A stretch of 64,000 nucleotides of DNA, taken from Siniperca chuatsi. Lineage: Eukaryota; Chordata; Actinopteri; Centrarchiformes; Sinipercidae. This document shows positions 25,296 through 61,058 of this stretch, piece after piece. Below the pieces are notes generated by a model. It did no database searches. It was not told where the DNA came from and was given only the letters and a program-made list of their open reading frames with translations. The number at the start of each line of letters is the position of its first letter. Position 1 is the first letter of the stretch. Position numbers and translations under genes: made by a program. The DNA is taken from the NCBI RefSeq assembly GCF_020085105.1, contig NC_058052.1, positions 24,418,233 through 24,482,232 on the forward strand, given 5' to 3'.

Positions 25296-28200
25296 TCAAG
25301 AGCTCTTGTCTTCAAAGTAGGTCTGTTCGATGCGTCTGCAGAAGGACAGCAGGTTGCTGTAGCTCTTGATCCTCTCTGCCAGCTCAGTGCTGGTCAGCCT
25401 GGTGGTCAGTATGGTGAAGAGGTGACCAAACACCAACGCATCCAGTTCTGTAGGCCTACAACACACACACAGTTTGTTTGTTACTGCTGAAAACAACCAT
25501 TCATCCATCCATCCATCCATCCATTTTCTTCCGCTTATCCGGGGCCGGGTCGCGGGGCAGCAGTCTAAGCAGGGACTCCCAGACTTCCTTCGCTCCAGAC
25601 ACTTCCTCCAGCTCCTCCGGGGATCCCGAGGCGTTCCCAGGCCAGCCGAGAGACATAGTCCCTCCAGCGTGTCCTGGGTCTTCCCGGGGCCGCCTCCCGG
25701 TGGGACATGCCCAGAACACCTCCCGAGGGAGAGGCGTCCAGGAGGCATCCGGATCAGATGCCCTAGCCACCTCAGCTGGCTCCTCTCGACGTGGAGGAGC
25801 AGCGGCTCTACTCGAGCTCCCCGTGTGACTGAGCTCCTCACCCTATCTCTAAGGGAGCGCCCAGCCACTCGGCGGAGGAAGCCCATTTCGGCCGCTTGTA
25901 TCCGCGATCTTGTCCTTTCGGTCACTACCCAGAGCTCATGACCATAGGTGAGGGCAGGAGCGTGAGATTGACCGATAAATCGAGAGCTTTGTCTTTCGAC
26001 TCAGCTCCTTCTTCACCACAACGGTCCGATACAGCGCCCGCATCACTGCAGACGCTGTACCGATCCGCCTGTCAATCTCACGCTCCATCCGTCCCTCACT
26101 CGTGAACAAGACCCCGAGATACTTGAACTCCTCCACTTGAGGCAAGGACTCCCCACCTACCCGAAGAGAGCAAACCACCTTTTTCCGGTCAAGAACCATG
26201 GCCTCAGATTTGGAAGAGCTGATTCTCATCCCAGCTGCTTCACACTCGGCTGCAAACCGTCCCAGTGCATGCTGCAGGTCCTGGTTTGAAGAAGCCATCA
26301 GAACGACATCATCTGCAAACAGCAGAGATGAGATCCTGTGGTTCCCAAACCGGACACCCTCCGGCCCCTGACTGCGCCTAGAAATTCTGTCCATATAAAT
26401 TATGAACAGAACCGGTGACAAAGGGCAGCCCTGGCGGAGTCCAACATGCACCGGGAACAGGTCTGACTTACTGCCGGCAATGCAAACACAGCTCCTGCTC
26501 CGGTTATACAGGGACCGGACAGCCCTTAGCAAAGGGCCCCGACCCCATACTCCCAGAGCACTCCCCACAAAGCGCCCGGGGCACACGGTCGAATGCCTTC
26601 TCCAGATCCACAAAGCACATGTGGACTGGTTGGGCAAACTCCCATGAACCCTCGAGCACCCGATGGAGAGTATAGAGCTGGTCCAGTGTTCCACGACCGG
26701 GACGAAAACCACTCTGCTCCTCCTGAATCCGAGGTTCGACTATCGGACGAATTCTCCTCTCCAGTACCCTGGAGTAGACCTTACCGGGGAGGCTGAGAAG
26801 TGTGATCCCTCTGTGATTGGAACACACCCTCCGGTCCCCCTTCTTATACAGAGGACCACCACCCCGGTCTGCCAGTCCAGAGGCGCTGTCCCAGACCGCC
26901 ACGCGATGTTGCAGAGACGTGTCAGCCAAGACAGTCCCACAACATCCAGAGACTTAAGATACTCAGGACGGATCTCATCCACCCCTGAAGCCTTGCCACC
27001 AAGGAGCTTGCCAACAACCTCAGTGACTTCGGCCAGGGTGATGGATGAGTCCGCCTCCGGGTCCCCAGCCTCCGCTTCCTCTTCGGAAGACGTGACAGCG
27101 GGATTGAGGAGATCCTCAAAGTATTCCTTCCACCGTCCGACAACATCCCCAGTCGAGGTCAACAGCTCTCCACCCGCACCGTGCGGTGTTGGTGAAGCAC
27201 TGCTTCCCCTCCTGAGCCGTCGGACGGTTTGCCAGAATTTCTTCGAGGCCGACCGATAGTCCTCCTCCATGGCCTCTCGAACCTCTCCCAATCCTGAGTT
27301 TTTGCCTCTGTGACCGCACGGGCTGCAGCACGCTTAGCCTGCCGGTACCTGTCAGCTGCCTCGGGAGTCCCACGAGCCAACAAGGCCCGATAGGACTCCT
27401 TCTTCAGCCTGACGGCATCCCTTACTTCCACCGTCCACCACCGGGTTCGGGGATTGCCGCCGCAACAGGCACCAGAAACCTTGCGACCACAGCTACGAGC
27501 CGCCGCATCGACAATGGAGGTGGAAAACATGGTCCACTCGGACTCAATGTCCCCAGCCTCCCCGGGATCTGGGAGAAGCTCTCCTGGAGGTGTGAGTTGT
27601 AGACCCTGCTGACAGCGGGCTCCGCCAGACGCTCCCAGCAGACCCTCACGATACGCTTGGGCCTGCCAAGTCTGTCCGGCTTCCTCCCCTGCCAGCGGAT
27701 CCAACTCACCACCAGGTGGTGATCGGTTGACAGCTCCGCCCCTCTCTTCACCCGAGTGTCCAAGACACGCGGCGGAGAATCAGATGATACGACAACAAAG
27801 TCGATCATCGACCTCCCGCCTAGGTGTCCTGGTGCCACGCGCACTGATGGACACCCTTGTGCTTGAACATGGTGTTAGTTATGGACAAACTGCAACTAGC
27901 ACAGAAGTCCAACAACTGAACACCACTTGGGTTCAGATCGGGGGGGCCGTTCCTTCCGATTACCCCTCTCCAGGTGGCAATTGAACAACCATTCAATTAA
28001 AAGATTTTTACTTTCATTTTAGATATCTAGTAAGTTGATTTGGGTGGCAAGTAAAGATTAGGTCAGCAATAATATTTTGTTATTATATTATTAAGTTATT
28101 ATAAATGCACAACGTGTTGTTTTTAATCCACATGCTGGTCATTTCTTTTATTCAAAATGTACAGTTGAAACCTGTACCAGTGATGCACTATAGCATTACT

Positions 28201-29712
28201 GCTTATACTGGGAAACTTCCTGGCTTCTACCAATCATTTCATCCACTTCTTTCACTCAGCTATAAATGAGAAATGGAAACTGAGAGGTTAAAAGAAACCA
28301 TGACATTAAAATACAGTACATTACAAACATTGGCTGCAGTTTTCATAATTTGTTTGAAAGGCATTAATAAATACTGTTGTTCTAAGAATGTACAGAAAGA
28401 AGTTTCACTCTCAGGCGATTAGGAGGTCATTACAGTTTTACACCACAAGGCAGCGCTAAAGAAAAAGCTGTCAGATGCTTTCAAACACTTATTTCCTTTT
28501 TGGCTTGGACCCCTATAAGGTCAGCTACAGAGCAGAACCTGCAGGGGTTCAGCATATCGCTTAAGTACTGAAGTATACCCCCTCACTATGCCATCCTATT
28601 GCTGTTTTGTTATTCAGCTGCTATGACAGAGAAAAACAAAACACATCAGACAGATATACACACACAGACAGACGGACAGACAGATACATACTGTTTATTA
28701 AAGAAGTATGGTTGTGTCCCCAGCCTCTGGGAGAGAGCCTGGCAGCACTGACTCACATCCTCATAAACCTGAAACACATGAGAGGACAAAAAGTTTGTTG
28801 TCAATTTGTGTCAATATTTTGTGAGACTACAAAAACATAAATTGTATCTGGGATTGCATGAAAACAATTGTAAAGCTTGTAAAACACTGTACATTTATTG
28901 CCGGCGGTTGCTAACCTGCTCCAGGGTTTTCCCTCCCCAGCCGATGGCGTTCATCTTCCTGCGAACCTCCCACTGCTTCTGATAGGCGAGGATGTTACTG
29001 AGAGGCCATGAGTAAGGACTGCTGTACCTGGGGCGCGAGATCTACACAAAACACATGCATGTGATTAAGAGGCAATAAATAATCACTGCCAAATCTGTTT
29101 TTTTATTAATCTAAAGACAAGTATACACACCTCAGCAGCTGTAGCGTCATCACACCACTGGATGTACAACTGTAGAGGGGAGAGGAGACTTGAATGAGAA
29201 GATATTATCCACAAATATTGGTTCTACTAACAGTATATTGATTCAACTGTGTGTATTTTGTTACTTGGCAGTGAGTGTACGTGTTGTGTGTGTGTGTACC
29301 TCGGCAGTAAGCAGCATGTTGTTGACCAGCTCCATGTACGCTTTCATTTCAGCTCTCTGAACATCATCTAAGCCATCGCTCAGAGAATGACCCTGAGAAC
29401 CCAAAAAACACATGCAGAGAAAATTATTTTTCTTATCATCTTAAATTAATCCTATTTTTCTAACTAATAAAAAGAAAAAGAAACTACTAAGATGTCCTAA
29501 CATGAATAATATTGACAATGATAGCTTTAGGTGATAAAATGTCTTAATGTGTCTATGAGCATTAAGCAAGCAGTGATAAAAATCTATAACAACTTCGATA
29601 TCTGTGTTACACACACACCTTAGCTTTGGTGAATTGCACTATCGGCCCCAGTTCTGACACCACCTGGTTCCCTACGTGGATAAAGGGAATCTTACCTACA
29701 AAGTGACAAAAA

Positions 29713-29781
<69 letters not shown>

Positions 29782-31837
29782 CAAACCATTAGTCATTTTG
29801 GAAGGAGTAACCCCACCACCTATAACCGCAAAACCCAAAAGGCCAAGAGTCCTAGAGTCTTATCCAGTCAAAACTGCTATCTTTTCACCTGCATCTAGAC
29901 ACAATCTGGATACAAAGTAGTGGGACAGACCAGGCCACAGAGACAGAGAAGTACATGGAAGTTATATAACTGAATTTCCAACAAAAGACAAGCTGAATAG
30001 CTTACAGTTTTTGAACCAGCTAAGCCTATGAGTAATGTAGGTTACAAAGCACAGTCAATAAGTACCAAATTAACTTTAAAACAAGGATAACACCTGTTTC
30101 AACTTCTGGTTATATGCGGATACACGATACTGGATTTGAAAACATCCCAGTTGCTCTGAAGTGAAACCTAAAGTTAGTATTGTTAATTTTTCAGTGATAT
30201 GGACCACAAAACAAAGACCACATGCTGGGATTCAAACATTGTATTCATAGCATGAAAAGACAGCATGGCAAGAGTAAATTCACATCTGCAGCAGCATGTG
30301 TACTAACCGGAAGGTGACATGTATTCAGCATTTGCTCTGCAAGCCACCTGCACTGGTAGACCGCACATCCTGAGGTAGGCCTGAACAGGAGAGAAACATG
30401 GCAGTGTCAATTAGTACTGGAACAATTAAGTCATAAGAAAATCAATCAACAAAAAATTAAACCATGATAATGTTTATGATCCATTTATCTTTTAAGTCAT
30501 CTATTAACATTGACACTAAGGTCTGCACTAAATATGCTGACACACACATGCTGATATATTTTCTGAGAAGTCACACAAACTTCACCTGAACAGCGAGAGA
30601 TGAGGCGCAGTCTGACAGCAGAATCTGATCCTCTGTAAAAGCAACACCAAAGTAATGTAAACAACTACGCTGATTGCCTCTATCATGGCAATTCATATTG
30701 TTTCCCCATTTCAGACAAACACTGACTTACCCTTCAGCGGTTGGTACAAGGTTGCAGTTTCAGGCCAAGGCTCAGCAGCTGTCAGTGTCAAAAACACAGA
30801 GAGAGAGAGATTGACAATTATGAAGGTGATAAATTGGCTTATCAAACTATCATGTTGCTGGTGAGTTTAACGGTTTACATTCTTCTATTTATTTGTGCAA
30901 TACATTCACAATTAAATCAATGTTACGTTAATTAAACTTTAACTGTACGCCAACAGACACACCCCCGTAGAGGAACAGACACTATACTGTGTATTCCCAT
31001 TGTTCAGCTTAGTTTAGATGCAGGGCCATTTCAGACATTCACCGTTAATAAACCTGCTAATCGGACAAATGTTGAAAACGCAAACCCTTGAGAAGGCAGG
31101 TTAACTTCTCAGCAACAGTTCAGGAGGTTTCACATCAATGCGCTCACCGGAAGTTATATTACAACAGCGTATGGTTTTATATACAGGCAATGGGTTTACA
31201 TCATTTTTATTGCAATATAGCTTCCAGCCACAAGTGGCAGCACTGAGCAGACCAGTGCCGAGCAGCACTTCAGGTTCAGCGAGAAAGAAGTCATTCGCCA
31301 TCTTGGATCTTACGCTGATGGTTGAATTTAATATAATTTAGCCGCACTTGATTGGAGTAAGGCGTGTTTTTGTAACTCGACACAAAGCTGTCATCGACGT
31401 GGATCCTCCTGAACGGTTGCTGCTTGAATTCGCTGTCCTCCCTGAGGTTTGTGTTTTTCCACGTTATTCCGACAAACAACTTTTTTAGCATTATACGTCT
31501 AAAAAGGGTGCAACACTTGGTTAGCCATCTAGGACACATAGCCAGCGTGACAGTACTGTATGAGAGCTAGGCTAACCAAGCTAGTCACTGCTAAAGACAC
31601 AGAAAAAGGTGGACAAGGACAGCCATCGTTACAGTTATAGTTGAGCAGTCCTGCTACGTTAAACGGCGATGGACACTTTTATGTAAATAACCAACGTTAG
31701 GAAACGGCGACATGACTGTAAACGTTAGCTGATGTTAGCTGGCTAAAGTTAGCTTAATAGACAATAATAAAAGCACTGGGCAAAGTCAACACATTACCTG
31801 CCATCTGCGACACGAAAGCCTCTGCCGCAAGAGACAT
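25296..31837 (-). CDS. mtx2: metaxin 2, mitochondrial outer-membrane import factor (10 exons)
   Basis: Metaxin 2 works with metaxin 1 on the cytosolic face of the mitochondrial outer membrane in protein import and SAM/MICOS-linked assembly. Exons by eye: 31798-31837, 30731-30778, 30586-30632, 30308-30380, 29619-29695, 29300-29392, 29131-29169, 28916-29041, 28692-28768 and 25296-25455. All introns are GT-AG and phases join without a stop, giving 259 residues against about 263 in mammals. The product starts [13 protein letters not shown]. Family blocks include [20 protein letters not shown] (thioredoxin-like/GST-N fold), [19 protein letters not shown] and [20 protein letters not shown] with FCRRIEQ (GST-C). 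The start has A at -3. The frame stays open upstream to 32089, but family members begin at MSL. Intron 9 carries a Rex3 insertion. The gene marks the 3' flank of HoxD clusters. Confidence 0.96.
25492..25503. repeat. Rex3 target-site duplication, copy 1
   Basis: aacaaccattca, repeated exactly at 27984-27995. It abuts the tetranucleotide tail of the element and lies 37 bases before the mtx2 exon 10 acceptor on the minus strand. Confidence 0.85.
25504..27983 (-). mobile_element. Rex3-like (RTE clade) non-LTR retrotransposon, 5'-truncated and broken
   Basis: This 2.48-kb LINE is coded on the minus strand. Pieces run from the end of an APE-type endonuclease (about 27840-27600, with IDFVVVSSD and [10 protein letters not shown]) into reverse transcriptase ([15 protein letters not shown], then [16 protein letters not shown], about 26840-26690). 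The catalytic FADD is at 26308-26319 and the C-terminal block [13 protein letters not shown] near 25920. The 3' end is a (GGAT)n tail, typical of Rex3. The sites I remember for the standard Rex3 PCR primers occur at 26413-26433 and 26855-26874. The reading frame is broken by several frameshifts, and most of the endonuclease is missing, so this copy cannot move by itself. Exact 12-bp target duplications flank it. It lies in mtx2 intron 9 in sense orientation. Confidence 0.93.
27984..27995. repeat. Rex3 target-site duplication, copy 2
   Basis: aacaaccattca, identical to 25492-25503. Its perfect state suggests a fairly recent insertion, although the frame damage shows the copy is not pristine. 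Confidence 0.85.
29717..29780. repeat. (AG)32 microsatellite in mtx2 intron 4
   Basis: Sixty-four bases of pure AG on the plus strand. On the mtx2 transcript this is (CU)32, ending about 20 bases upstream of the exon 5 acceptor. It thus extends the polypyrimidine tract. Confidence 0.95.
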
Positions 31838-32136
31838 TGTGATGTAGCACGTTAATATCCTTATTGCTAAATAATAATTATGAGAGCTGAGGTCAATTCC
31901 ACTGCATGCAAGTTTAAGGGCAAGTGCTGTTCTGCAGTCACCGACCGGTCCGTCCGCGAAAACGTCCCGAGGAGTAAATGTAACTCCGATTTTAGTTCCG
32001 CTTTTCGCCCGAGCTGGAAACGACGACTGTCTGCTGCTATCGCTGTGTGTGGAACATGCAAGACTCTGTCGCAATATCGGTACAAACATGTAGGTGTAGT
32101 GCGGCTTTCTCTACAGTCTGTGGTGTGGCGATAATG
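31838..32136 (-). promoter_or_regulatory. mtx2: mtx2 5' leader and likely CpG-rich promoter
   Basis: The roughly 300 bases before the mtx2 start are richer in GC and CpG (ccgaccggtccgtccgcgaa, cgaaaacgtcccgagg) than the introns around them, as expected for a housekeeping promoter. I see no convincing TATA box. The transcription start is not fixed by the sequence. Confidence 0.5.
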
Positions 32137-32330
32137 TACGCGGGTGGACAAAATAACAGAAACACCACATAATGGAGTCCAATACAATGCCACCGCGAAT
32201 TTTAGCCTTAAAAGTGTCAGTACTTTTGAATCAGTTTTGACACCGTCTCAACAACTGAACATCGCAAGCTTTACAAACAGTAGTGTGTATTGCTCGTTTG
32301 TTTGCATAATTGTGTACAGGTGTCCCTTTT
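32137..32330. repeat. possible dispersed repeat fragment
   Basis: 'gggtggacaaaataacagaa' followed by 'acaccacataatggagtcca' resembles, from memory, a widespread vertebrate repeat unit with a 'tattttgtccaccc' end. No flanking duplication is visible. Confidence 0.3.
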
Positions 32331-33248
32331 ATTATCACTTCTTGACATTAATTCAATCAATGTTAATCAAATCTGATTACAACTCACATTTTCCTAATGT
32401 ATGTTAATATGTTTTCCCTAAGTGAGAAAATGTCTACGTGAGCTTTTCTTATACGTTCTTTGTTTATTTCTTTCTCTGGCTGCAATACTTGGTGCAACCA
32501 GTCGGGGGCGTTCCTGCTTCACTGCAGGACTGCAGACTGACAGGGTGGTGTGATATATAGCCTATAGCAGCCTACATGCATAACGTCCATTAAGCGCAAA
32601 CACATACATCTCGGGCATTACAAAATATGATTAAAAATGTTTACAATACAGAGAGTAGGTGCAATGCACAGTATATAATTAATGAGACAATATATGCTGT
32701 TCTGTTTGAATTATATTCAGAAGCAATAAAGCCTATTTTGCACACTGAGAATATCCATACATGCATCTTTGTCAAGTTTATTTGTACTATTCTTTTGTCC
32801 ATTTAAATTTAAATAAAAAGGCCATATTGTCAATTAGCATATGCGTATATGTTTGTTTGTTTTTTACTATTTCTGTAAACTTTTAAAAGTAGGCCAGTAT
32901 ATAGGCTACTTAACATGGGATCCGAGTAATAAATGGCAGGTCTATAGTCGTTTAGTGGTTTACTGGATTTCCCACAGCAGAGCAAAACAAGTAAAGTATC
33001 CCTCAGTTGTCTTTGGCTACTGTCTCAAATTGCAGACATGTAGACGTGTTTTCGTTTGTGACTGAATATCTGGGCTTCTGTTGGCCTGACTGGTCAGCTA
33101 TGTTGTGGATCTCCAACGTGTGATAGATATCCCATGTTGCCCATGTCAGCCCCGTTGTGCCTTTCCTGCACTCTTAACCGCGGCTCGACCGGAAGCCACC
33201 AATTAATGCCTCTCATTTCCCTTACATCCCACAAACACACACACACAA

Positions 33249-33311
<63 letters not shown>

Positions 33312-34142
33312 AGAGGATTTCTTTCACCCAAAGTAGCCCATGTCGTCCCTGCGCTGTGCGTAAGCAATGCGTAAAAAGCGCATGCAATCATAAGATCCTC
33401 CGAATGGTTAAGAAATGTTTTTAACCACATAGAGACGCGGATGTGTAATACAGGCTACAATGTACGTCTGCCATAGTCCTATATAAACTTACAAACATCT
33501 CAGGCAATATTAAAGTCTGCTCGATCACTGTCATATTTTAACATTTTACATTCCAGCGACTTGAAAAGACATCTAGGCCTAGGATACCTCGCATTTTAAA
33601 CATTTTAACGCAACAACAACTTTGTGTAGAACATTCCTCGACCAGCGGGTCCTTTACTATATCTCTGACTTGGCTTAAGACAGCAGCAAACTGTCGCTGT
33701 AATGATTAAACGTTAAGGATCACCGTTTATCCGCGGAATAATTCGGTGCACATTTTAAATCCTCCCACGGGAGAAAATAATCACGTTTTAAAAGCATCTC
33801 AAGGCTTAACGGACTAGATATTTGTCTTGGCTCACCTCAAGTGACTTGACGCTACGTTAAATTATGACTAACAAAAATTGGGTATGGTACAGAGGATCGC
33901 TTTGTTATGTTTAAAAAAAATTTACTTTCCCCACATATATTGATATATTGACAGTAAAAGTAGAATATAATTTTGTATTATTATCATTATTATTATTATT
34001 ATTGTTGTGAATTCGTCTTTCATTCATAAACCATGTTCGGAGTAATTCTACGTCACTTCCGTTGATTCTCTCTCACCATCCCTTCACCCTGCAAAGAAAA
34101 AGTAATCTGTCCGCTTAAATACGATCACAGCATACACATATG

Positions 34143-34174
<32 letters not shown>

Positions 34175-34600
34175 AATATTCGCAGTTTGAAACATTTTTA
34201 ATTTTTATCATCTAAGTATTTTATCAAAACATTTCCACATATAAAATTCTTACACAAAGAGTTTTTCTCTTTTTTTTTTCAAAGATGAACACTTACAAAA
34301 AAAGAACAGAGATGATGCTTGCTACAAAGAATAAAATATGCTTCTAAATAATACAAATAAAATTAAGTACTGGCGTAGGCTATAATAGAAATCAATAGCA
34401 TATTAAACTGGAATCAAAGAGAGAACATATTCTTTGAAAATGTAGCATTATGCTGTTTCAGATTATTTTAAACCTCTCTGTGCTGAATCAAACAACAAAC
34501 GTTTCAGAAAGTTCTGTTCGTTAAAACCCTGTAACCCTGAGAAAATAAGTTGGATTTACAGTCAGCGTACGTTGCATTAAAAACCTGTACCTCCAATTTG
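32331..34600. other. spacer between hoxd4b and mtx2
   Basis: About 2.3 kb with no homeobox, hexapeptide motif or other coding trace on either strand. A hoxd3 or hoxd1 gene would be expected here in a complete HoxD cluster. It holds the CA/AG microsatellite at 33231-33306 and a TG/AG run at 34144-34173. Confidence 0.6.
33231..33306. repeat. (CA)n-(GA)n compound microsatellite
   Basis: An interrupted AC array passes directly into an uninterrupted AG array of about 46 bases. Confidence 0.95.
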
Positions 34601-34610
34601 GCTGTTTTTA

Positions 34611-34841
34611 ATTCTGTATTTATTCCCCCTGCGTACAAATGTGTGACTTTCCCCCTAAACTATTCAAAGGTGTCTTCACTTTTTAAGAGATAAAAATGCT
34701 GCACGATATGGCTACTTATCCTACTAAATATGCATTCTTTTTGGATGCTCCTCTATGTACAAAATAAAAGCTAAAACATTATTTGTCCAACCATTCTGCA
34801 AGTCAGCCTCCGAGCAATTTGGCGTTCTTCTGTTTATTGTT
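34611..34841 (-). terminator. hoxd4b: candidate hoxd4b polyadenylation signals
   Basis: Two AATAAA hexamers on the minus strand lie at roughly 34836-34841 and 34617-34622, some 600 to 820 bases after the hoxd4b stop. That is a plausible 3' UTR length for a Hox4 gene. Which one is used cannot be told. Confidence 0.35.
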
Positions 34842-35437
34842 TTGCCCCTTTAAGCGCCAGTTTGTGGGAACAACGTGTTGGTAATGTGCATATTCATAAG
34901 TTAGGCTATTTCATCTTTTAGGTAGCTATTATAAAACCCTGTATTATGTTTACCCTGTAGAAATAAAACCCTGTTTTCTCCAAAAGACACAATCTCTCCT
35001 CGTCCACCGTAGATAGGGATAGTTTGGCAAGACTGCAACCAATAGGCACCATGCTTTTGCGCCTTTAATATCGGATGTCTAAATATGAAACATCTCCCTA
35101 ATTTCACCACAGAGATGTCAGACCATCTACAACCTTGACGTTTACCTAAATGTAAGACTCGAAGACTCATGAATGAGTTAAATATCAGACTGGAATTGGA
35201 TGCAACCTCTACACAAGAGAAATATTTAAAAACACTTCAAAGTAAACGTTAAAATATAAGGCGAAATACATTAATGAATTTATAAAGCCTTATGTAGACC
35301 TATAGATGGATAACCTATACGTTTAAAGCAGTTTAGAATTGTTTCACTGCAGTCACCCTGGACCAGTCAGTTTTGGAGAGTGAAGATGCTAACATGGCTG
35401 CCTCACACGGCCAAACTCTGCTCCTGCAGTTCTGTTT

Positions 35438-36874
35438 TCAGACAGTTATCACTGCCTTCACATTGCTGTCGTTGCTGCCGCCGCTGCTGCTGTTGTTGTT
35501 ATTGTTGTCCGTTGCTTTCTTGTTTTTGCTCCTTCCTTTGGTGTTTGGTAGCTTGTTGTCTTTCTTCCAGCGCATGCGCCGGTTCTGGAACCACACCTTC
35601 ACCTGCCTCTCGGACAGGCAGAGCGCGTGGGCCACCTCAACGCGGCGGCGGCGCGTGAGGTACCGGCTGAAGTGGAACTCCTTCTCGAGCTCCAGAACCT
35701 GCTGGCGCGTGTAGGCCGTCCGTAGCCGCTTTGGTTCCGGGCCCACGTGGTTCGGATTAACTGTAAAAAAACGAAAATAATAATAATGAACACATGAGAA
35801 AGAAAGAGAGAATTAAAGCGAGATCTTTTTTATTATTTAATTGTACAACTTTTATTTTGTTTTACTCATTTGAACTAATATTAGTATTATTATGAAAGGG
35901 TAGGCGAAATAACAATAGCCTACACACTAAATTAAGCTAAATAACATGTAATTATCCTGCAAGTCTAGCATTTTATCAAATCTTATTTTAACATTATTGC
36001 AGTTATTATAGTGTGGTATTTTTTATGTGTTAATATTCGTTTGTGGTTGACTGGGAAAAGGTCCAAGAAACGATTTTTATTTTTAACGTGCAGCTTTTTG
36101 TTCAGCCGCAGCGTTGCACACCAGAGACACACAATCACGCGTGCGTGCGTACACACACACACACAGACACAGACACACACACATACACACACGCTGTGGC
36201 AGGGCCATAAAACTTTATAGGGGTTGTAATTCTCCTTGACTCATGGGATCATAAATAACTCGACAACAAAAAACGGTGCTCACAAATGGACAAAACACTA
36301 GAAAGAAAGAAAAGAGCGAGATTGCGCCTGGCAGGCAAAACGACATAAGCATGGGAATCAGACAAAGTGAAATGATGGAGAAATAGAAGGGGGTCAGTTA
36401 AGGACAGAAAGATAAAAATCTTTAGGCTATCTCACCATGAGCGACGTGCACTTTCTTCATCCATGGATAAACAACAATAGGCGGCTTGTCTTTCCCCTGG
36501 CATGCCGTTTTCCTCTGCACCTGAGCGGGCTTTGTACAGGTCATCCAGGCCTGGCACTGCAGGTCCCCCACGGAGAACCTCTGCTTACTACCGGGTGCGT
36601 CTGTCTCTCTGTAGCCGGGGAAGGGCGCACCTTGGTGCTGCGACTGGTCCTCTCCATCCTCCTGTTGGTGCCCCTGTAAAGAGTGTTGATAGCCGGTTTG
36701 TTGTGGTGTGTATGGAGGCGGAGGGGGCTGCATGGACTGATAGCCCCCTCCATAACTACCACTGTCCTGGGGGTTGTTGTAATACCCCCCTTGGTTACTA
36801 AAATTACTGTAATCTTCTTCACATGGCGGGAACTGCGGCTCAGCATATTTACAGCTCACCACGTAGGACTCCAT
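35438..36874 (-). CDS. hoxd4b: homeobox protein Hox-D4b (2 exons)
   Basis: An Antp-class homeodomain transcription factor of paralog group 4, which helps set hindbrain and anterior trunk identity. Exon 1 is 36436-36874 and exon 2 is 35438-35760, joined by a GT-AG intron in phase 1, giving 253 residues. The N-terminus [20 protein letters not shown] is a diverged form of the Hox4 start. A proline-rich run and the PBX-binding hexapeptide YPWMKK with KVHV follow late in exon 1. Exon 2 gives [12 protein letters not shown] and the homeodomain, with [17 protein letters not shown] and the recognition helix [18 protein letters not shown], then LPNTKGRS and a poly-Asn/Ser tail. Compared with the Hox4 consensus I remember, several sites differ (I47V and K55R among them). 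Assignment to the b copy rests on mir-10d upstream and mtx2 directly downstream. Confidence 0.95.
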
Positions 36875-37060
36875 GATTGATTTATAGCGAGGCTGGTAGG
36901 AGAATACTAATTTTTCTTTCTCTCCCCTCTCTCTGTCTCTTTTCCCCCTCTGGCATCAAGCCATCCTGCGGCTGTCAAATAGACGGACGGCCGCGCGAGC
37001 CACGTGACCCTGCGGCCAGCCAATGAGAGACGGCACTTCGGATTGTTTATGTCGGACGTA
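36875..37060 (-). promoter_or_regulatory. hoxd4b: hoxd4b proximal upstream region
   Basis: Directly before the start codon lies 'tgattgatttat' (plus strand 36874-36885), which contains the PBX-HOX-type words TGATTGAT and TGATTTAT. Further up are an E-box CACGTG (37001-37006) in GC-rich DNA and a CCAAT pentamer on the plus strand (37020-37024). These are motif matches only, and binding is inferred. Confidence 0.4.
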
Positions 37061-37262
37061 ATGGGATCATTTGAAACAAAAAAATGTTCATTATAGGACT
37101 AATGAAGTTTTGCTGGCGGGGAATAATGGTTAAGAATAGATGTTTGTGGACTTTGAAAAATAACGTTAAGAATTCTATACACCTCTGGCATGCTGGCATG
37201 TGGGGTCTAATTATCACTAAAAATGAATGAGATAGATTTTAGTAGGCCTATAATAGGCCCTG

Positions 37263-37263
37263 A

Positions 37264-37352
<89 letters not shown>
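37263..37352. repeat. (TATC)22 tetranucleotide microsatellite
   Basis: Ninety bases of nearly pure ATCT repeat, (GATA)n on the hoxd4b strand, beginning about 390 bases upstream of the hoxd4b start codon. Confidence 0.97.
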
Positions 37353-37353
<1 letters not shown>

Positions 37354-37360
37354 GTCTCTT

Positions 37361-39248
37361 TATCTGCCCCCTCCCCACCCCTCCCCCACACAGCACCTAT
37401 TGAAAACGCACGGACTGTAGATTTATGACTTTTAGCTGAATGACTTTTACCCCCACACAGATGGCCGGAGCTGCAAAATTAATCTCGCACATATTGAGGG
37501 ACGGCGGGGCCATATTTGGCCTTGTGGCCAGTCAAAGGATGGACAACAAAACATGGCCGGTCAGAAAGGCCTCCAATAAAAGAATGAGATAAAAGGTTCC
37601 CAGACAGTGACTAGTAGTTGGCTTTGTTAGGCCGGGGTCAGCCCGAGGTGTCCCGTTCACCACCACCAATTCGGCTTTTAAAGGGGGAAAATAAATGCAT
37701 TGCTTGGCTTAAAAAATGATGCTAAAGCAAGCTGGACGAGAGAAAAATGCGACAGGGCTGAAAAATGAAAGTGAATTATGCTGGATCTATAATCGAAAAA
37801 CGTGAAAGAGATAAGTGAATATGCTAAGTTCAAGCCCTCACACGAAGAAAAAAAAATCATATAATGAGGGTGCTTGTATTCCGTGCGTGAATATTTTGTC
37901 TTTTGCTAGACTGAACTAGTTTTTGTCCAAAATGCTAAAACACAAATGCCAGGGTATAAAAATAAATCATCTTTGCACGGAGGAGTAGACCATAAATCAG
38001 TGTTATATCCTTCAGGATTTCATGAGGATGTCTTCTTTGGCTGCAGCTGCTCTCTAAGGATGTTAAAGGTCTGATGCTCAGCCAAAACCTCTTAATAAGC
38101 ACTGTTAATCCTACTATTACCTCTGCCTAATATAGCCTGTAATAATACTCCAATAAAGACAAGAGGGAGAAAATGTTTTTCCTTGGCTGGGGCATTAAAG
38201 GAGCTCATGTGAAGGGTGTAATGGGTTTGAAAATTTTGGCATGGTTGACAGAGTACAAGTGAACTAAAGATTATATGGGCTTAATCTATCTGATCTAATG
38301 AGCCACTTGTTCAGAACAGCTCATAATGAATGACTGATAAGCTACCAGATAGGTAATAAAGGGGCTAAACCTCACTTTTTTTTGTCAGTTTGAACAATTT
38401 TTCCTCTTAGTTTCATTGTTCCTTTTAACACGAAAACAAAATCTGCGTGGTGAATGGGTCCCTTGCCTCAACCTCTTCCACTGAGATGTCATTGAGCGAA
38501 GCACTTACACCATATTTTGTGATGGGAAGTGTTAGTGTACACTTGCATTTGCAACTTTTTCATTTCACAGGAAGATTTTCAGCCACTTATACATTATTTA
38601 AAGCTTTTAATTTCAGACATTCAGCAACATTAAGGCAAGATAAACCAACATATTTATATGAATTACTGTGAACAAATACTTTAAAATATTACAGCCACAT
38701 TAGCTACAGTCCTTTATGAATAGAGTGTGCTGCAGAAGTGATTTCATCGGGGCAGCAAGCCATGTAACTAGTTTTGAGTGAAATCTTTATTAGGTTACAT
38801 GCACACCAGTACGCAGATCAAGGTATTGTGATGCTGTTGTTGTGATAACTTTTTTTCTGTGTTTAAGCTTTGTGCTGCAACCAAATTGCCGTTTTGATTT
38901 CTTAATCAAGACTCAACGCAGACCTTAATGCTGCCGGGGGAATTGGATCCTGTAGCGTGATCACATCGTACACTGTGTAACTCAGCATGTGCAAACTGTC
39001 CTGCTCAATTGGTGATCAGTTTGGATGCAAACAGCAAAGGATGACATGACAACCTAACTTCCCCATCACCTCATTCGAGCTGCTTGGTGCTTAACCACAG
39101 ACAACTGCCAAAGGTAGCCTTTAGGAAAGTGTGAATTGTTAAGGAGAGCTGGCCTGAAGAAGGATACGTTCCTTTGGCAAACAAAAGCATTGTTAACAGT
39201 CATCAGTTTTCATTCTCTTCCCTTGGATTATGATAGATGGTTAGTCAT
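37361..39248. other. spacer between hoxd4b and mir-10d
   Basis: No coding exon is visible. The stretch is AT-rich with ordinary-looking unique sequence. In other Hox clusters the interval between Hox4 and mir-10 carries shared regulatory DNA and 5' exons of long Hox4 transcripts, so some of it is probably functional. Nothing in the single sequence marks which part. Confidence 0.5.
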
Positions 39249-39328
39249 CGCCCATAGACTCCCCTAGAACCCAATCTGTGACTGAGGCAGCTCCACACAC
39301 ATTCGGTTCTACAGGGTATTTATAGGCG
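39249..39328 (-). ncRNA. mir-10d: microRNA miR-10d precursor
   Basis: On the minus strand the 5' arm (39296-39318) reads TACCCTGTAGAACCGAATG followed by TGTG. This has the miR-10 seed ACCCTGT and the 3' end that I recall as distinctive of fish miR-10d. The 3' arm near 39259-39281 gives CACAGATTGGGTTCTAGGGG, a miR-10 star sequence. The arms pair along their length around a loop of about 15 bases, and the outer CGCC/GGCG closes the hairpin. miR-10 genes sit between Hox4 and Hox5 and have Hox and other mRNAs among their targets. This copy lies about 2.4 kb upstream of hoxd4b on the same strand. In zebrafish mir-10d is reported as the only survivor of the HoxDb cluster. Confidence 0.97.
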
Positions 39329-51105: not shown

Positions 51106-53610
51106 TTTGATAAATTGTTAGTGTAAAATATTATTATGGCAGCTTTAAGAATACTGTATTTTCCTTCCATAAGGAATAAGCAGTAAGCTTCACAGCCACC
51201 CTTTCTCTTACTAATTGAACTCACAGTTGACTGCAGTAAAGTCGTGCTTTTGTCTGGGGATTGTTGGAAGGCAATTTGGGAAAAATTGCAGATGACTAAC
51301 TGAGGTAGTGTGGAAAGTAGGTTAAAAAAAAAATAGAGCACTTTGTTGCAGTATTATCTGCAGAATAACTCCTGGTTTGGTCTGATTTTCCCGTTAGGCC
51401 CACCTTTCTAAACTTTTCATGAGCCAAATGTCCCAGCTAATGTTGATGTAGCCTGTTGAGGAGGGCTATTGGCCACACACTTTATACCCTTTGTCTGCCT
51501 GTGCTTTGTAGCAATAAATACAAACACTGATTTGTCAACTCTGGGCTGATCCCATGTCTTTTATTTGGAGCATCTGATTGAGGCATAATACTAATAAATG
51601 TGTGCTGTTTATGTTGTAATCCTTTAAATACACAAAACTGCTTATAGGCTTTAATATTTTATGTTACAATGCCACATAAGTCTTTCTTTGGCATATTAAC
51701 TCTGGCATAGCTAATATATAGGCTACATACTAAGGTCGTTACTCTCATCTCTCTGCTTCATCATCTTTGTCCTTGAAAGAGGTCAGAAATTCCTTTTTTC
51801 CTCAACAGAGTGAAACAATATATTCACTTCACTGCCATAACAAAAACAAAATCTTATTTTCATTTAACTGAAATTGAAGTAACTATTGCCAGACTTAAAT
51901 TAGTGGTAAAAAATCTTGTGAGTGCATTTTAATGGCCACCAGAAGCTTAAATAAACTGGGCTTATAGTTATCAGAGCATGCCCAGAAAATAATTTTCATT
52001 TTAGTCAACACCTTGAATAATCCAGAATGGTCTAATTTAAATAACTATTAATTCAGTTCTTATAATGCATTTACAATGGCTCTTTTTTATGTTATTGTTT
52101 CAAACTTCAGGTAAACTATGTGCTGCCCAATCACATTTTCAGATGGTCTTTTCCACTGTGTCTCCCTTCTACAAGTGAATGAGGCTGCCATAAAACATTC
52201 GCAATCCTTCCATTTTCATGACAATGGCAGCCATCTTATTTTAGGTAGTTGAATACCACAATCCACCTGTGCATTCCTACCATTTTAGGTTAAGGGACTC
52301 TAATAGAGAGAGGCTTGAAAAACACGGAGGAAATGAAAAATAGAAAGCATGCAATCAGATGTTAAAATGCATGCTTTCTCTTTCCTGAAGCTGGCGCGCT
52401 TCTCTCTTATATTCTGAATCCACATTTTGTCACATTTGGCACCTTGTCCTGAGGAAACACACAATTGACCATTTAAATACAGCTGTTTAAAACTACAGCA
52501 ATTCTACATGGCCGTAACCACTGTGGCTGATGGTTATACTCAGAGTTCACCATGGGAATTCTTTGGTATTTTCAAGGATGACAAGACAAAAACTCAGAAT
52601 TAATTCTACAAGGTGGTAACATATCTTGTCTATGTTTTTGTTTAGGTCTATGATTTATTTCTGTCTGTCTTTTTATAGCCATGCAACTCTCTGAGAATAT
52701 GAGCAGCAAGATGTGTTGACAACATTTTAATGCCTACATTTGTCATAAAAACGCCAACGTCATTTATGTCATACCTAATGAGCGGTGAAAGAGAGTGGGC
52801 TTTTTAAATGACAAGATGCATTTTTTTTTGCATTATGTTACTCTTTTACAATACTTTTTTATTTTTTCATGCTTTGTTATAAGATACTGTATTTGTAATT
52901 TTCCCTTTTTCTCAGCTTAAAGTAAATAGCTCTAAATAAAATAGCTAATGTTTAAATACTTAGAGAGAAGAAGGGCTAACAATGTTAAGCCATAACTGAA
53001 GCAGGTCAAAGTGACTGCACAGACCTTAACGCATTGGTTTTATTTTGAAGAGGAAACAGAAAGTGGAAGTAGCATCATGCACCCCTCTGACTGCAGTAAT
53101 GCTCCCAGATGCCAGCGTTTTTATCCAATTTGTTTTACATGTAAATGATTGAAGAACACAATTTGTTTCTTATTCATGTAGCTTTGCTGTCTAAATTAAA
53201 GCAGGTTGGATAAAAATGAGCATCACCTCATTAATGAATGGCCCTTTTCCTTTATGTATTACCCCCTATCTGCAAATTAGGGACTTTCCATACTGGTGGA
53301 GAAATTAATTCTTTAATCATTTTCTAAAAATGTCTAGGTAGACTAAACATTTAAAAGACTTTGTGTCACTGAGTAGAAACAGAGCTTTTTCCTGATTTCA
53401 GAACGTTTAACTCAACAGCAGCTGTATTTTCTGAGGGTTTCTCATGCTGAATGTTAAAACTTAATCTGCAAGTACAGCCGTGAAATAGCCTAAATGTCAT
53501 GGAGTATAAATGCTGTAATTGGCTGAATGCAGTGGGAAACCGTTTGAACTTCACTTCAATTAGCCTGAACTAATTGAGTAAACTACTTTAAGTACTTGTA
53601 TGGGGTTGGA
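51106..53610. other. unassigned intergenic DNA
   Basis: About 2.5 kb of AT-rich DNA without a credible exon, RNA gene or transposon on either strand. Confidence 0.5.
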
Positions 53611-53616
53611 AAATTC

Positions 53617-53688
53617 AGGTTCTACTGAGATTTGAACTCAGATCGCTGGATTCAGAGTCCAGAGTGCTAACCATTACACCATAGAACC
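53617..53688 (-). tRNA. tRNA-Gln (anticodon CTG)
   Basis: The 72-nt gene is read on the minus strand from GGTTCTATGGTGTAATGG. The 7-bp acceptor stem GGTTCTA/TAGAACC is perfect and the D-arm region contains the usual TGGTGTAATGGTTAGCA A-box. The anticodon loop is ACTCTGAAT in a paired stem (GGACTCTGAATCC), giving CTG. The T-arm contains GAGTTCAAATCTC (B-box). It has no intron. A TTTT run directly after the 3' end (53610-53613) is a Pol III terminator. Compared with the standard vertebrate tRNA-Gln, the T-stem and acceptor have paired changes, so it looks intact and functional. It lies between hoxd9b and mir-10d, an unusual place for a tRNA gene. Confidence 0.95.
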
Positions 53689-55070
53689 GCTGTGAAGGGT
53701 CGCTGCAGCTGAAGCAGTACAACACTTCCACCCAGCGGACAGAGTCGGTAACTACACACACCGGCAACAGTGCTGGTTCTTGGTGTAGTGTTTTTAGTTG
53801 GTTTTCAGTCTTTAAAACCAGTTCACATCTTTAATCACTTTGAGACAACAGCGTTAACAGGGTCAGTTTATTGACGAAATGGATTTCTAATCATTTATTG
53901 TTTTTATTCCACTCTAAGGTTCCACGTTCATTTTGTCCCTTTGGTTATCCATGTGTGGCTGTATAGTAGACTATATACTGCTGTTACTAGTACAGCTTCC
54001 TCCTAAGAATATGCTATATGGGTACTAAACCATGCTGCAGGAATCCTTTTTCTAAATAATCATTTTGTATGTAGTTATTAGAGTCTAATAGCCTGCTATA
54101 CTGCACCACTGTGAATTCATTTTATGTTACTGCAGACATTGTCCTGGGAACAACATTTAATCGGGAGTAATAATTTGTACATTACTTGCCGTACTATTTA
54201 ATTTCTGCAGCACAATAAGTATTCCCCTTGTTGCAGTTGGCTGTTGATGCGGTTGTTTCGTTCATTTTATTTTATGACACCTTCTCGTTAGGTCTTATAC
54301 ATTTAATCGTTATTTCTAAACTTGTTTTGTTGTTGTTGTTCCATTATCATATTTTTTTATTATTTGCCTTTTTTGCCTTTCTTGTACAATCACTTTGCTG
54401 CACATTTCAGTGCTTATGGAGTGAACGTGTGTAGATTTTGTAATTATGGAATGTTTAAAGAAATTCATATTTTCAGGTTTTCTTGTCTTTCTCGGCGTTC
54501 ATCTAGCCTTTATTCTTAATATCCTTAATGCTAATAGCTTTATCAGCGCTCAGTGAACATTTGGAAATAACGCACACACAGCGTGTGTAATAGAGCAGTG
54601 ACATTTTGATTTAGAAAATGAGACGAGAAGCTTCTTTTCCGCCACTTCTTATTCATGGCAAGAAAACAGAAATAGAATTGAAATGATGTCGTTCATTATA
54701 GCAGACAGTGCTACTGGCGATTTGTGGCATTAAAGTTTCTTATGTTGGCCTGAGACGGCTACATTGGAGTGTCACATTATCTACTGGCTAAAATCATGGC
54801 GGTAATCCGGATTTTAAAAAATGAAAGACCTACAGCTTTTTAGTAACAAATGCGGACTTAAACGCTATTTAGGCAGAAACGCCTTTGTTTTATGTTTTAA
54901 TTCCTGCTCCTGTTTTGTGGTCTGTAGAAATGTGACTGAGGCTGTCTTGTCTCATCTGCAGACAATGACTTTAACATTTAGAAGGACAGTTGAGGCTCCA
55001 AGGCAGGAAAGGGTGTCCAATAAAACCATATAGTCACGATGACTGTCTGGGCTAAATGACTTTATGGTAC

Positions 55071-55073
<3 letters not shown>

Positions 55074-55134
<61 letters not shown>
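55074..55134. repeat. (TG)30 microsatellite
   Basis: Sixty-one bases of uninterrupted TG. Confidence 0.97.
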
Positions 55135-55135
<1 letters not shown>

Positions 55136-56326
55136 TGTCTTGAGTGTGGGGAAAGTCACGTTTATTCTCCAAATGCATGCTGTTGGTTTATGACCCTGCA
55201 GTAGGATGAGCGCTGAGCAGATTATATGGCCGCAATAAACGAGGGAAGCTACGAGGCGCTGCACTGACTTTGACAAAACAAGGAGGCAGAAATGTCTCTC
55301 TGTGGACTCAAACTCCGACTACATACCTGAGACCGGTGAACACCTTGACGTTGGAATAATATAATCATAATAAAAAACATAATAAATCGTATTATGGGTC
55401 TATAATCCAGTGAAACGTCAACTATGAGATACTGTGTGTGTCTCTTGTAGGATCACACCATGATAGTGTAGGGTGATACTGTGAGAACAAGAAGTAATCA
55501 GTAGTGCAGTAGTGTAGTAGCATTTTGTGTTTCTCTCTTTCATACCAAAAATATAAACATTAACAAAAAAATGAATAACAATACAACTGTAATTTTATTA
55601 CAGCTGTAATAATCGAACCAAACGATTGCATACATAACATATTTATCATTAATAATATTATTATTTGTATCAGTAGTAGTAGGCTGATATTATTATTATT
55701 ATGTCCGTAGTTATGGCCAGGTAATGTTATTAAATCGTACTAATTCGGTTACTACATATGTACATTAGTGGAAATGTCAAATAAAAGCCTAAAACCGATG
55801 TCGCCCAAATGACCAATTTCTTCGCATAAAATCACAAATACGAACTGAACAGACACAGAAAAACAACAGGGAAACCGCACAGTTAACAATGATGTAATGC
55901 ATCTTTTATTTCATTTTTAAAAAAAGTCATCACGAGCAGCATATTCAGCCTAAATGAGCAGATGAAGGCCTCATTTCATCACATCTCGACTCCAGTTAAA
56001 TCACAGCACAGGCCCGCCGCTGTAGGCTAACATAGCCTGATGTGTTTCCTTTTCTCCCAGAGAGAACGTGTTGTTTTTGAGTCCATCTCATCCTCGTGAA
56101 AAAAAAACCCCCACTAAAATACCTTTGACATCCCTATAATATTCCTCTAATATTTCAACGTGATGTTATCGTACATTCTAAAATGAAAACAGGTTGTGCG
56201 TTGTTTCTGTGTGTAGTCCTTGTTAAACGTCTTACATGGACTGTAGCTGTTTATTCTTACAGGAGGTAACAGTGAAACAGAAAAATAACCATCAGACTGC
56301 TGTCACACCATAGCTTAGCCATGACT

Positions 56327-56361
<35 letters not shown>

Positions 56362-57284
56362 GAATAAAAACATGACCATATCTGCATATTAGACCCACAG
56401 TAACAACAGATATACATAGCAACATTGACAACAACAGCAACAACAACAATAACAAATATGCCCATAAGGCTACATGCACAGTTTATAAAACAAAACAAGG
56501 AAGCTTATTCTGTTTCTGAGGAACAAAATGTCCTTTCTGGTTATTTTAGGGGAGACTGGGGTTGGTTGTAACACAGAGAATTGCTCCAATCAGGAGCAAG
56601 ATAAACAACCACATGATGATCTGTGTATAGGCCTTTTCTGACAGCATTACTCACCTGGGTGCACCTGAAACACATTATGAATCATTCAAACATATCTTAA
56701 TATTACAGGGTTTTTTTAATTGTTTATTTAATAATTTGCTTGTTTGTTTATTTTTTGTTCATTTTATACTTTTGCTAACTTGACATACTTTTCTGTTCCA
56801 GAATAAATGCTAGTCCTCCACACTGAGGTTTCACTTGCAAGCTGTGTATTAATCTATGAGGTTGTGGATAGACATAACACATATTTCAGCATGTTGCAAC
56901 AAACCTCAGGTTGTCCAACTATTTTGATCTACACATTTGTCTATATTTATATCCCTGGACCAGGGAAAGACAAGAGTACTCCTAAACACTGAAATTCTTC
57001 TTTTTGCAGGTTGACGAGGTCGTTTATTGTATTGGATCTACACTGAATACGGCAGAGCATCCAGAGTCACTCGTGTAACAGCTCGCCTTGTTGTTGTGTG
57101 CATATTCAGCCATCTAGCAGAAAGAAAATATCCATCTTCAATAACTTATTTGCTAAAGTGGTTCATCTTTACACTAAAGTGACATGATGTTGGATGTTTC
57201 AGTCTAAAAGGAAGTTCACAGCAACTCTGTGTTTTTTTCTTTTTCCGTGACAAGTCTGCTTTGAACAAACTTTGCCTTGCTAAG

Positions 57285-57430
57285 GAGCACATGTGAATTT
57301 ATCACACTTTTACCATGTTAAAAAGTCACATTTAGGCACATGTGGTTTTAATATATTTCACATGTGAAAAACAGCAATTTCACATGTAGTATCTTGGTGT
57401 GAAATCTTGACGTGATAGATTCACATTTTT
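57285..57430. repeat. possible 'ttcacatgtgaa' palindrome-rich repeat
   Basis: Words related to cacatgtgaa appear at least five times in 150 bases, in both senses. I recall similar dispersed units in teleosts, but I see no clear ends or target duplication. Confidence 0.4.
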
Positions 57431-58118
57431 GTAAGGGTAATAAAATTGTCAATCAGAACCAATGAGACTGAATAGCAGCACACTGACAGTAAGCTCAGCC
57501 ACAGCAAATGTGCTTTGTGTCTTATGGTCAAATAACACTCGATCATCCAAATGACTTAATATTACAGCATTTTAAATCAGATTTCATCTTTAAAGCTAAC
57601 AAAGGGATCAGCAAAGTACATCAATTGCTCATATTCCCGTTTACATCAGTTACCACGGAAACTCACCACTTCATCTCTCCAAATTTGTCTCACTGTTTTG
57701 TCTCTTTTAGGCAATTAGTGTATTATAAGTGTCAGGCTTCTGTTTGTCTTCTTTTCCACAAGTATTTCATTTTAATTTCAAATAAACACTCTGCGACTAT
57801 TTTTCAGGCCATAACCGACTGCTCAGTGCTCAGACATAAGATCACTCATAGGATTTATCTTTGATAGTTGCCTGTAGTGCAGTCTCGTCTGGCACACTGA
57901 AAGCAGTTTTCATGAGGACAATAGTTTTTAAAACACGATTCACGTTTTGGCAGAAAGTACAGACAATTTAAGCGAGTCAAGTCAAGTAGTTTCAGTTTTG
58001 GACATGTGAGATATATAACCTTATCAAAAACAGATGTGTTTTAAAATGAACAAAGTCTTTGATATCAACTAGTATGTTTTTTGCTTCAATTTATGGATCT
58101 CCCTATGAATGTTAACAT

Positions 58119-58124
58119 TTTATT
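58119..58124 (-). terminator. hoxd9b: candidate hoxd9b polyadenylation signal
   Basis: AATAAA on the minus strand, about 370 bases after the hoxd9b stop codon. Use is inferred from spacing only. Confidence 0.4.
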
Positions 58125-58493
58125 CTGAGCATTATTTACAACTACCCCAGGTTACAGGTTGACTGTCTTCATTTTGTAACATGCAGAGGGAAGAATTCTA
58201 CACCAGAGTTCAGAAGAGCTAACGTGAAAAGGCCAAAAGACTTTGATAGGAATATATTTTTTAAAAGTGTTACAACACATCCTGGTCTCCCCTGTAGAGT
58301 TTCACCACTGCAGTTTTCCAAGGCAGCCATGTGAGCTCCACAGTCCCTTGCTTAGTAACAGCTGATCATGCCAGCTGAGATTAAAGGTGTTGGGCATCTT
58401 GGAGCACTGCATTTCTTTTATCAGCTATAACCTCACCTCCTCCTCGCCTAGCCTGGAAAAAACAACCCCAGCCTCTTCTCCAAATCCTCCAAA

Positions 58494-58807
58494 TCATTCA
58501 TTCATACTCCTCCTCTCCCGGGTCATCAGCTTCTTCATCTTCATCCGTCTGTTCTGGAACCAGATTTTGACCTGTCTCTCTGTCAAATTTAAGAGTCCTG
58601 CCACCTCCAGGCGCCGGTCCCTGGTCAGGTACATGTTGTAGAGAAACTCCTTTTCCAGCTCCAGGGTCTGGTGTTTGGTGTACGGACACCTTTTCTTCCG
58701 GGTGGACTTGGCATAGATCCAACTAGCTGATGGATTTTCTGCAGAAGAAGAGATAGGGTGGCATAGAATTTTACTTTAACCGCACACCAGTATATTTACT
58801 TTCTGCT

Positions 58808-58883
<76 letters not shown>

Positions 58884-61058
58884 TGTGTGAGTGCTGTGGG
58901 GAATTCAAAGACTGACATAAAAATCAAAGAAAATATTCTCAGGAACAAATTTTATGAGCCTGCAACTTTTGGCTCATTAGAAAAAGAAACAAACACCACA
59001 GCTCCATAAATAGAGACAGTGTTCAATTCTTTTTTTTTTTTTTTAAACCATATTGCTCTTTTTACCAAGGCTAAAACAGTAACTGAGTTTTTATTAGCAT
59101 TAGGGTTGTTTATTCCCGCATTTTACCCTTCCCTCATTTCAATAATTTAACATAATGTGACATTATGTAAAATTATGTTTGTGGTTTCTGATGTAGCTAT
59201 AGACATTTTAAGATGAAAATGTTTTTGGGAGGACAGCAAGCAGCAATAAATAAATTCCCAATAAAGATCTGTCTGAGTGCGAAAGTGTTGATAAACAGCC
59301 AAAGTGAGCCTCATTTTTAGAATTATTAAACTGCAGTCGGGGATAGATATTTGAACCTTTGACTGATATAAAATGCTTTATTGGCCACTTTGAAAAAGTA
59401 CAGCAGCCAGAGAGTGCTGTGAAGTTATAGTTAAACAGAGAGCAACAAGTATTTTGGCTTTGGCTTGGTGGCCATACACTCGGACGTCTTTGCTCACTTT
59501 GCTTCAATTTCTGAATTATTTATTTGATGAACTGGACTTCAGGTTGGCAAAGATCTCCTGAAAATATTTATTTAACAATAAGTAAAACTTTGAGACGAAT
59601 CATAGCTATTTTATATAATTATTTTAGACCAAATTTCTGAGCTAATCGTCATCATAGCGTTTTATTCTGTTGCACATAGCCTACACTTTAACAATAAACC
59701 AATAGCCTACAATTAGTATTAAATGTAGCAAATATAAATATGTAGTAATAGCCAATAAATGGTATTATTATAATAAGTATTAGTAGTAGGCTATTATAGC
59801 ACAGTCATATTGTTTTGCTTCACGTCATGTCTTTTACACCGTGTTCCTCTGTCATTTTTGTTTATTGTAATTTAGACTTTTTTTTAAATGGTTTGTTGTG
59901 GCTGTTTGAGGCACGCTGCATTATGAAGTTACTTCTGTGCAAGCCATGAAACGGTAAAGGGCCTTTAAATTATGAAGGTGTTTTTGGATAGACATACTTA
60001 TACAACAGATTACAGGCTATTATAGATACAGGCTATTTTTGGTAAAATAAGCGTAGAACATTAATTGCAAGAAAAATGGGCTAACTCATGAGTCTACCCC
60101 CCTGCACAAATCCACTCAGAGGAATGTAGCGCAAGCCTACCTGCGCTTTCCCTCTAGTGACAAATTGTTAAATAACAGCAATAGCAACTTAATTATTTTA
60201 ATGGACAATAAAGTTTTATATTTTACCGTTTACAAGACATTTATAGGGCTATAAAAGTCACACACGCTTACATAGGCCACGTTCTCCTTCTCTGTCACAC
60301 ATTCAGACAGACACACACACCTGTGTATGCACATGCTAATAAACAGTCCTGAGTTTGGTATATCTGTCATTACCCGGGTCGGGCTGTTGCTGTGTTTTCC
60401 TCTCCTCGTCCTCTTTTTTGGGCTCCGGCTTTCTTCCCAGTTCCTCCACCGTCCCAAGCCGCTCGAGAACCACCTCAGTCGGGCTTGCGAAGCTGGAATC
60501 CCCGGGGCTGTCGTGTGGCGGCGGTGAACTCTCGGGTTTAACCGCCTCATACCTCGGGCTCAGATTGGAGAGGTCACCCTGAGTGGGAACACACCCGGGG
60601 AAACCGGCCGACGCGTGCGACAGAGAGGTCTCCGAGGTGGGAGTCGCCCCCTCCCAACAGCGGACGAACCGGCTCTCGGAAGCGGCTGCGGATGCGAGGT
60701 GCTCGGAGTGGGACTGCGTCTGCGGGCCGTAGTAAGGGTGGTGGTGGCTCAGGAGGGGATGTGGATGAAAAAGGCCGGGGATGGAGGCGCCGGGGGTGGA
60801 CTGCAGCTGCGGAGAGGAGGACGAAGAGGAAGTAGAGGTGTTTGTCCAAGGAGAAAAGCCGTTTAAGCTCGTTTGTTTGTTGGAAAAATGTGAAAAATCC
60901 GGAATGTGTGAGCCGGGGGTCCCCTCCTCCTCCTCCGCTCCCCGGACTGGCTTTGCGCAGCCGGCCGTCGAACCCTGCAAGCCTCCCGGGATGAAATGTG
61001 CACCGTACGGCTCCTCTGTCTGGAGCCCCATCATTGAATAATAATTCGTTAGCGACAT
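58494..61058 (-). CDS. hoxd9b: homeobox protein Hox-D9b (2 exons)
   Basis: An Abd-B-class homeodomain transcription factor of paralog group 9, acting in trunk and fin patterning. Exon 1 is 60374-61058 (685 nt), ending in a GGTAATG donor. Exon 2 is 58494-58738, after a TTCTTCTGCAG acceptor. The joined product has 309 residues. It begins [12 protein letters not shown], a shortened form of the SNYYVDSLI start of group 9, and has Ser-, His- and acidic-rich stretches. Next to the splice is [17 protein letters not shown] with the Trp that contacts PBX. The homeodomain continues [20 protein letters not shown] and LTRDRRLEV, then [20 protein letters not shown], which fits group 9 (RDRR, NLTERQ, MKMKK) and not group 10. 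The short tail ends MNE. The intron (58739-60373) contains a 72-bp GT array. The b-copy call rests on the neighbours. Confidence 0.95.
58809..58880. repeat. (GT)36 microsatellite in the hoxd9b intron
   Basis: Seventy-two bases of pure GT, about 70 bases from the exon 2 acceptor. On the hoxd9b transcript it reads (CA)36. Confidence 0.97.

Follow-up and report, generated by a model that had tools for sequence, protein, structure and literature searches.

A reduced HoxDb cluster in Siniperca chuatsi with three putative miR-10 sites behind hoxd4b

We analysed a stretch of 64,000 nucleotides (nt) from the genome of Siniperca chuatsi (GCF_020085105.1, NC_058052.1 positions 24,418,233-24,482,232, forward strand), referred to below as the window. 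Read from high to low coordinates, its minus strand carries hoxd9b, a mir-10 hairpin, hoxd4b and mtx2, all in one direction of transcription. This is almost certainly a reduced teleost HoxDb cluster of the type published for acanthomorphs, in which hoxd9b, mir-10d and hoxd4b are followed by mtx2. The arrangement is ordinary, because the same gene set has been published for Astatotilapia burtoni (PMC2080641). As the cluster itself is known, its surprise value is limited to three putative miR-10 sites behind hoxd4b. Papers are cited here by PMC number.

The microRNA of the cluster is isoform d, as judged by the miR-10d reference sequence. A group 9 and a group 4 Hox gene lie in the same orientation, the mir-10 gene is located upstream of the group 4 gene, and mtx2 follows directly downstream of hoxd4b, a synteny that has been published (PMC2080641). 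HoxDb identity is well supported by this synteny with mtx2 and mir-10d, by the gene groups and by the fast evolution described for percomorph hoxd4b and hoxd9b (PMC4166920). The initial annotation had reported two Hox genes of groups 9 and 4, a mir-10 hairpin and mtx2 on one strand, and had read the locus as HoxDb. All four elements were recovered where it had placed them, and the window agrees with the published HoxDb in every visible respect (synteny, gene groups and miR-10d-type sequence).

Exon models of both Hox genes were built by translating the strand and joining the exons at GT-AG sites. The hoxd4b model consists of exon 1 (36436..36874, minus strand), which contains a YPWM motif, and exon 2 (35438..35760, minus strand), which contains the homeodomain (Pfam E 3.4e-21) and the stop codon; the product has 253 aa and no internal stops. 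Its closest PDB sequences are Sex combs reduced (Scr) and Antennapedia (Antp), which agree with a central or anterior Hox protein and alone do not fix group 4. The YPWM motif is followed by an Antp-type homeodomain with the group 4 signature, and we take the LPNTKGRS tail and a further protein motif to be group 4 features. At 12 positions the homeodomain has a residue found in neither Antp nor Scr, and four of these are V in place of I. About five of the 12 differences are presumably normal for group 4, and roughly seven would be derived. Scans of viral and prokaryote contigs with this homeodomain yielded no relatives.

The hoxd4b homeobox (35555-35731) is very rich in GC, with 93% GC at third codon positions compared with 69% in the whole hoxd4b coding sequence, while the intron has 36% GC; among other causes, this could be due to GC-biased gene conversion. 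Some 0.4 kb ahead of the hoxd4b start codon, at 37264-37352, lies a perfect TATC array of 22 copies. Among retinoic acid response elements, neither a DR5 (strict or loose) nor a loose DR2 was found in the window, which therefore gives no support for a hoxd4 response element of these forms.

The hoxd9b gene likewise has two exons on the minus strand. Exon 1 (60374..61058) runs from the start codon at 61058 to a GT donor and encodes the Hox9 activation region (Pfam Hox9_act, E 2.9e-13), and exon 2 (58494..58738) encodes a group 9 homeodomain (Pfam Homeodomain, E 3.1e-21) and the stop codon ending at 58494. Joined at GT-AG, they encode 309 aa without internal stops. Among chains with solved structures in PDB, the closest sequences are Hox-A9 and Hox-C9. 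A 90-bp GT array (58809-58898) lies about 70 nt ahead of the exon 2 acceptor. A candidate miR-10 site behind hoxd9b was rejected as canonical, since it matches only 9 nt (positions 3-11) and the full seed is absent. Both Hox genes are intact and presumably act as collinear axial patterning factors, by analogy with their stickleback orthologues, which are expressed (PMC9525239).

The mir-10 hairpin (39251..39325, minus strand) scores 55 bits with Rfam family RF00104, for which the gathering score is 47.5, and its folding z-score is -6.05 relative to 200 shuffles. The mature 5' arm starts at 39318 and has a G at position 19, which we take to be the miR-10d form. At all other positions, the mature sequence is identical to miR-10b as printed in PMC2148072. 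The hairpin shares the strand of hoxd4b and lies 2.4 kb upstream of that gene, and in the mouse Hoxd4 and miR-10b have a common upstream promoter and transcript (PMC3185001). Given this position and the analogy to the mouse, mir-10d is probably processed from an upstream transcript that it has in common with hoxd4b.

Behind hoxd4b, the minus strand holds three copies of ACAGGGT, the miR-10 seed match (34936..34974; starts at 34974, 34958 and 34942), at a spacing of exactly 16 nt. The trio begins 464 nt past the hoxd4b stop codon, in the presumed 3' untranslated region (3' UTR), and the microRNA gene is located 4.3 kb upstream of it. The middle match extends to 12 nt (34962-34951), in unbroken pairing with positions 1-12 of miR-10d. 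This is the longest match to miR-10d on either strand, the microRNA gene itself excepted, and the predicted duplex has an energy of -21.3 kcal/mol. A candidate poly(A) signal, AATAAA (34833..34838, minus strand), lies downstream of the three matches. A fourth ACAGGGT is present at 34532 on the minus strand.

The 605-nt stretch running from the stop codon to AATAAA was dinucleotide-shuffled 5000 times; none of the replicates contained three sites, and none contained the 12-mer. Shuffles of the whole strand produced three sites within 60 nt in 1 of 300 replicates and the 12-mer in 2 of 300. Because the pattern had been spotted by eye before testing, these figures are post hoc. ACAGGGT is the sole 7-mer starting in the 605-nt stretch that is tripled within 60 nt. 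When the gap between hoxd9b and hoxd4b was cut into 605-nt tiles as a control, three of the 35 tiles contained some 7-mer (of three or more letters) tripled within 60 nt. Hence, tripling of a 7-mer as such is not very rare; what is rare is that the tripled word matches the seed of the resident microRNA.

We consider it somewhat more probable than not that the three sites have no role in microRNA control and arose as a chance cluster or as a local repeat that has decayed. The exact 16-nt spacing, which could reflect local duplication, and the 12 nt that copies 1 and 3 have in common (ACAGGGTTTTAT) point in this direction, as do the whole-strand shuffles, the tripled words in the control tiles and the detection of the pattern by eye. 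In contrast, the copies agree fully in the 7-nt core (21/21 in pairwise comparison), whereas the downstream 9 nt agree at only 8/27 and the upstream 9 nt at 7/27, the flanks being partly overlapping. This disagreement of the flanks makes a simple tandem repeat of recent origin less likely. Moreover, the only word tripled in this stretch is the seed match of a microRNA encoded a few kilobases upstream. Further points weigh against regulation through these sites. An ATTAAA starting at 35069, ahead of the seed matches, could end the hoxd4b mRNA before the sites are reached. ACAGGGT occurs in 8 copies per strand in the window and is not enriched; the 8 on the plus strand include the microRNA gene. 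Finally, the putative sites are known from the sequence of a single fish.

The alternative to a chance origin is that miR-10d, or another miR-10, may damp the hoxd4b mRNA through the three putative 3' UTR sites. Such damping is plausible but unproven, and we put it at clearly less than an even chance. We are equally tentative about the wider proposal, in which miR-10d would have turned regulator of its neighbour, three cooperative sites forming a closed negative loop with hoxd4b after the loss of its usual anterior targets. According to this scenario, those targets (Hox genes of groups 1 and 3) would have been lost from the cluster before the loop arose. A likely miR-10a site is reportedly absent from the human HOXD4 3' UTR, and a reporter with this 3' UTR did not respond to miR-10a (PMC2680403). 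Hence, a loop between mir-10d and hoxd4b would set this fish apart from mammals. If true, it could help to explain why mir-10d is linked to hoxd4b in fishes that retain both, and conservation of the sites among spiny-rayed fish would indicate that the Hox-microRNA network was rewired in that lineage. Among the papers listed by literature searches on miR-10 and hoxd4b or hoxd4a, no title or abstract opening mentions miR-10 sites behind fish hoxd4b, although they may still have been described in print. With this cluster, one more fish joins those that have the hoxd9b, mir-10d, hoxd4b and mtx2 set, and the triple miR-10 site is what could matter.

Remnants of other Hox genes were sought with tblastn, using eleven queries with the low-complexity filter off and five shuffled windows as a control. 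The queries comprised eight homeodomains (hoxd1, d3, d8, d10, d11, d12, d13 and a group 5 gene) and three N-termini (d3, d8 and d10). No third homeobox was found in the window: outside the two Hox genes, the eight homeodomain queries reached E values of 0.14 to 1.2, compared with values down to 0.048 in the shuffles. Only one homeodomain query, HOXD12, beat all five shuffles; its match (E 0.14) has 24% identity and is located at 8.5 kb, on the far side of mtx2. All three N-terminal queries gave matches that beat the five shuffles. The HOXD8 match (60923-60970, plus strand; E 0.008) covers 16 residues at 50% identity and is antisense to hoxd9b exon 1. The HOXD3 match (26548-26883, plus strand; E 0.052) overlaps open reading frames of a long interspersed nuclear element (LINE), and the HOXD10 match (37334-37417, plus strand; E 0.086) overlaps the TATC array. 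In our judgement these three matches are composition noise, on the strand opposite to the cluster.

The description of the cluster as nearly empty held within the window, in that no third homeobox was found there, and does not extend to the 5' end. The window reaches only 2.9 kb upstream of hoxd9b, and hoxd11b, which would lie beyond it, is kept at that end in stickleback and in both pufferfishes (PMC2080641). We give even chances to a less empty HoxDb, with hoxd11b and an AxE-like axial enhancer just past position 64000. Apart from the retention of hoxd11b in those three fishes, the distances are in line with this possibility: the intergenic region between hoxd11b and hoxd9b in Apeltes, which holds the AxE enhancer, is about 6 kb long (PMC9525239), compared with 2.9 kb visible here. 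Neither of the 30-nt AxE flanks printed for stickleback was found within 3 mismatches anywhere in the window, as expected if AxE is outside it, diverged or absent. Conversely, hoxd11b is missing from A. burtoni and medaka (PMC2080641), so that either state is possible.

The HoxDb assignment itself was made by synteny and gene groups. Since an analysis cited in PMC9774920 could not separate hoxda from hoxdb coding sequences, synteny is the better criterion for telling a from b. It is very improbable that the window shows a broken HoxDa cluster with hoxd9a and hoxd4a, the a copies. The assignment without a tree and the cited inseparability are the sole points in favour, whereas no homeobox of hoxd3 was found next to the hoxd4 gene and none of hoxd10 in the 2.9 kb visible upstream of the hoxd9 gene, the neighbour mtx2 and the miR-10d-type sequence agree with HoxDb, and the derived hoxd4 homeodomain agrees with the fast-evolving percomorph b copies.

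The coding regions of the two HoxDb genes are separated by 21.6 kb (36875 to 58493), and the distance between their stop codons is 23.1 kb. The stickleback 3' UTR markers HOXD9B (17,764,664) and HOXD4B (17,783,616) are about 19 kb apart (PMC9525239). The initial annotation was correct that the spacing has not collapsed, although compared with stickleback it is nothing unusual. A tRNA-Gln gene (anticodon CTG; 53617-53688, minus strand; 68.9 bits) is located within this gap.

Downstream of hoxd4b, the mtx2 coding span (25296..31837, minus strand) was delimited from start codon to stop by tblastn with human MTX2. Its pieces, among them one at 28771-28691, start with MSLAAEAF at 31837 and reach a stop codon near 25296, and the last exon matches Pfam GST_C_6 (E 3.5e-13). 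Remains of a LINE reverse transcriptase (25936..26739, minus strand; RVT_1, E 7.4e-19) lie within mtx2, where they separate the last coding piece from the one before it. The open reading frames nearby, at 26740-27333 and 27159-27779, had no Pfam match above the curated cut-off.

Zebrafish has a HoxDb remnant for which Woltering and Durston (2006) is said to be the source study. Like the cluster described here, this remnant contains mir-10d, which in zebrafish sits between lnpb and mtx2 (cited in PMC2080641, PMC2148072 and PMC3707753); both Hox genes have been lost there, whereas both are intact in S. chuatsi. The HoxDb cluster of A. burtoni is closer, with hoxd9b, mir10-Db, hoxd4b and a complete mtx2 downstream, and with other Hox genes absent. 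Its 5' end is known (lnpb, without hoxd11b), whereas the 5' end of the present cluster lies outside the window; on the sequenced HoxDa clone of A. burtoni, lnpa was the only further gene found (PMC2080641). The stickleback HOXDB cluster also contains HOXD9B, miR-10d and HOXD4B at comparable spacing but, unlike the part visible here, has HOXD11B and the AxE enhancer upstream of HOXD9B (PMC9525239).

For the proposed loop, the closest system is zebrafish miR-10c, which acts on a HoxB3a transcript (splv2) that also contains miR-10c (PMC2148072). In both cases a miR-10 gene is embedded among Hox genes and the transcript of a neighbour bears miR-10 seed sites. The zebrafish case differs in its location in HoxBa and in its support from morpholino knockdown, whereas the hoxd4b sites are putative ones read from the DNA sequence.

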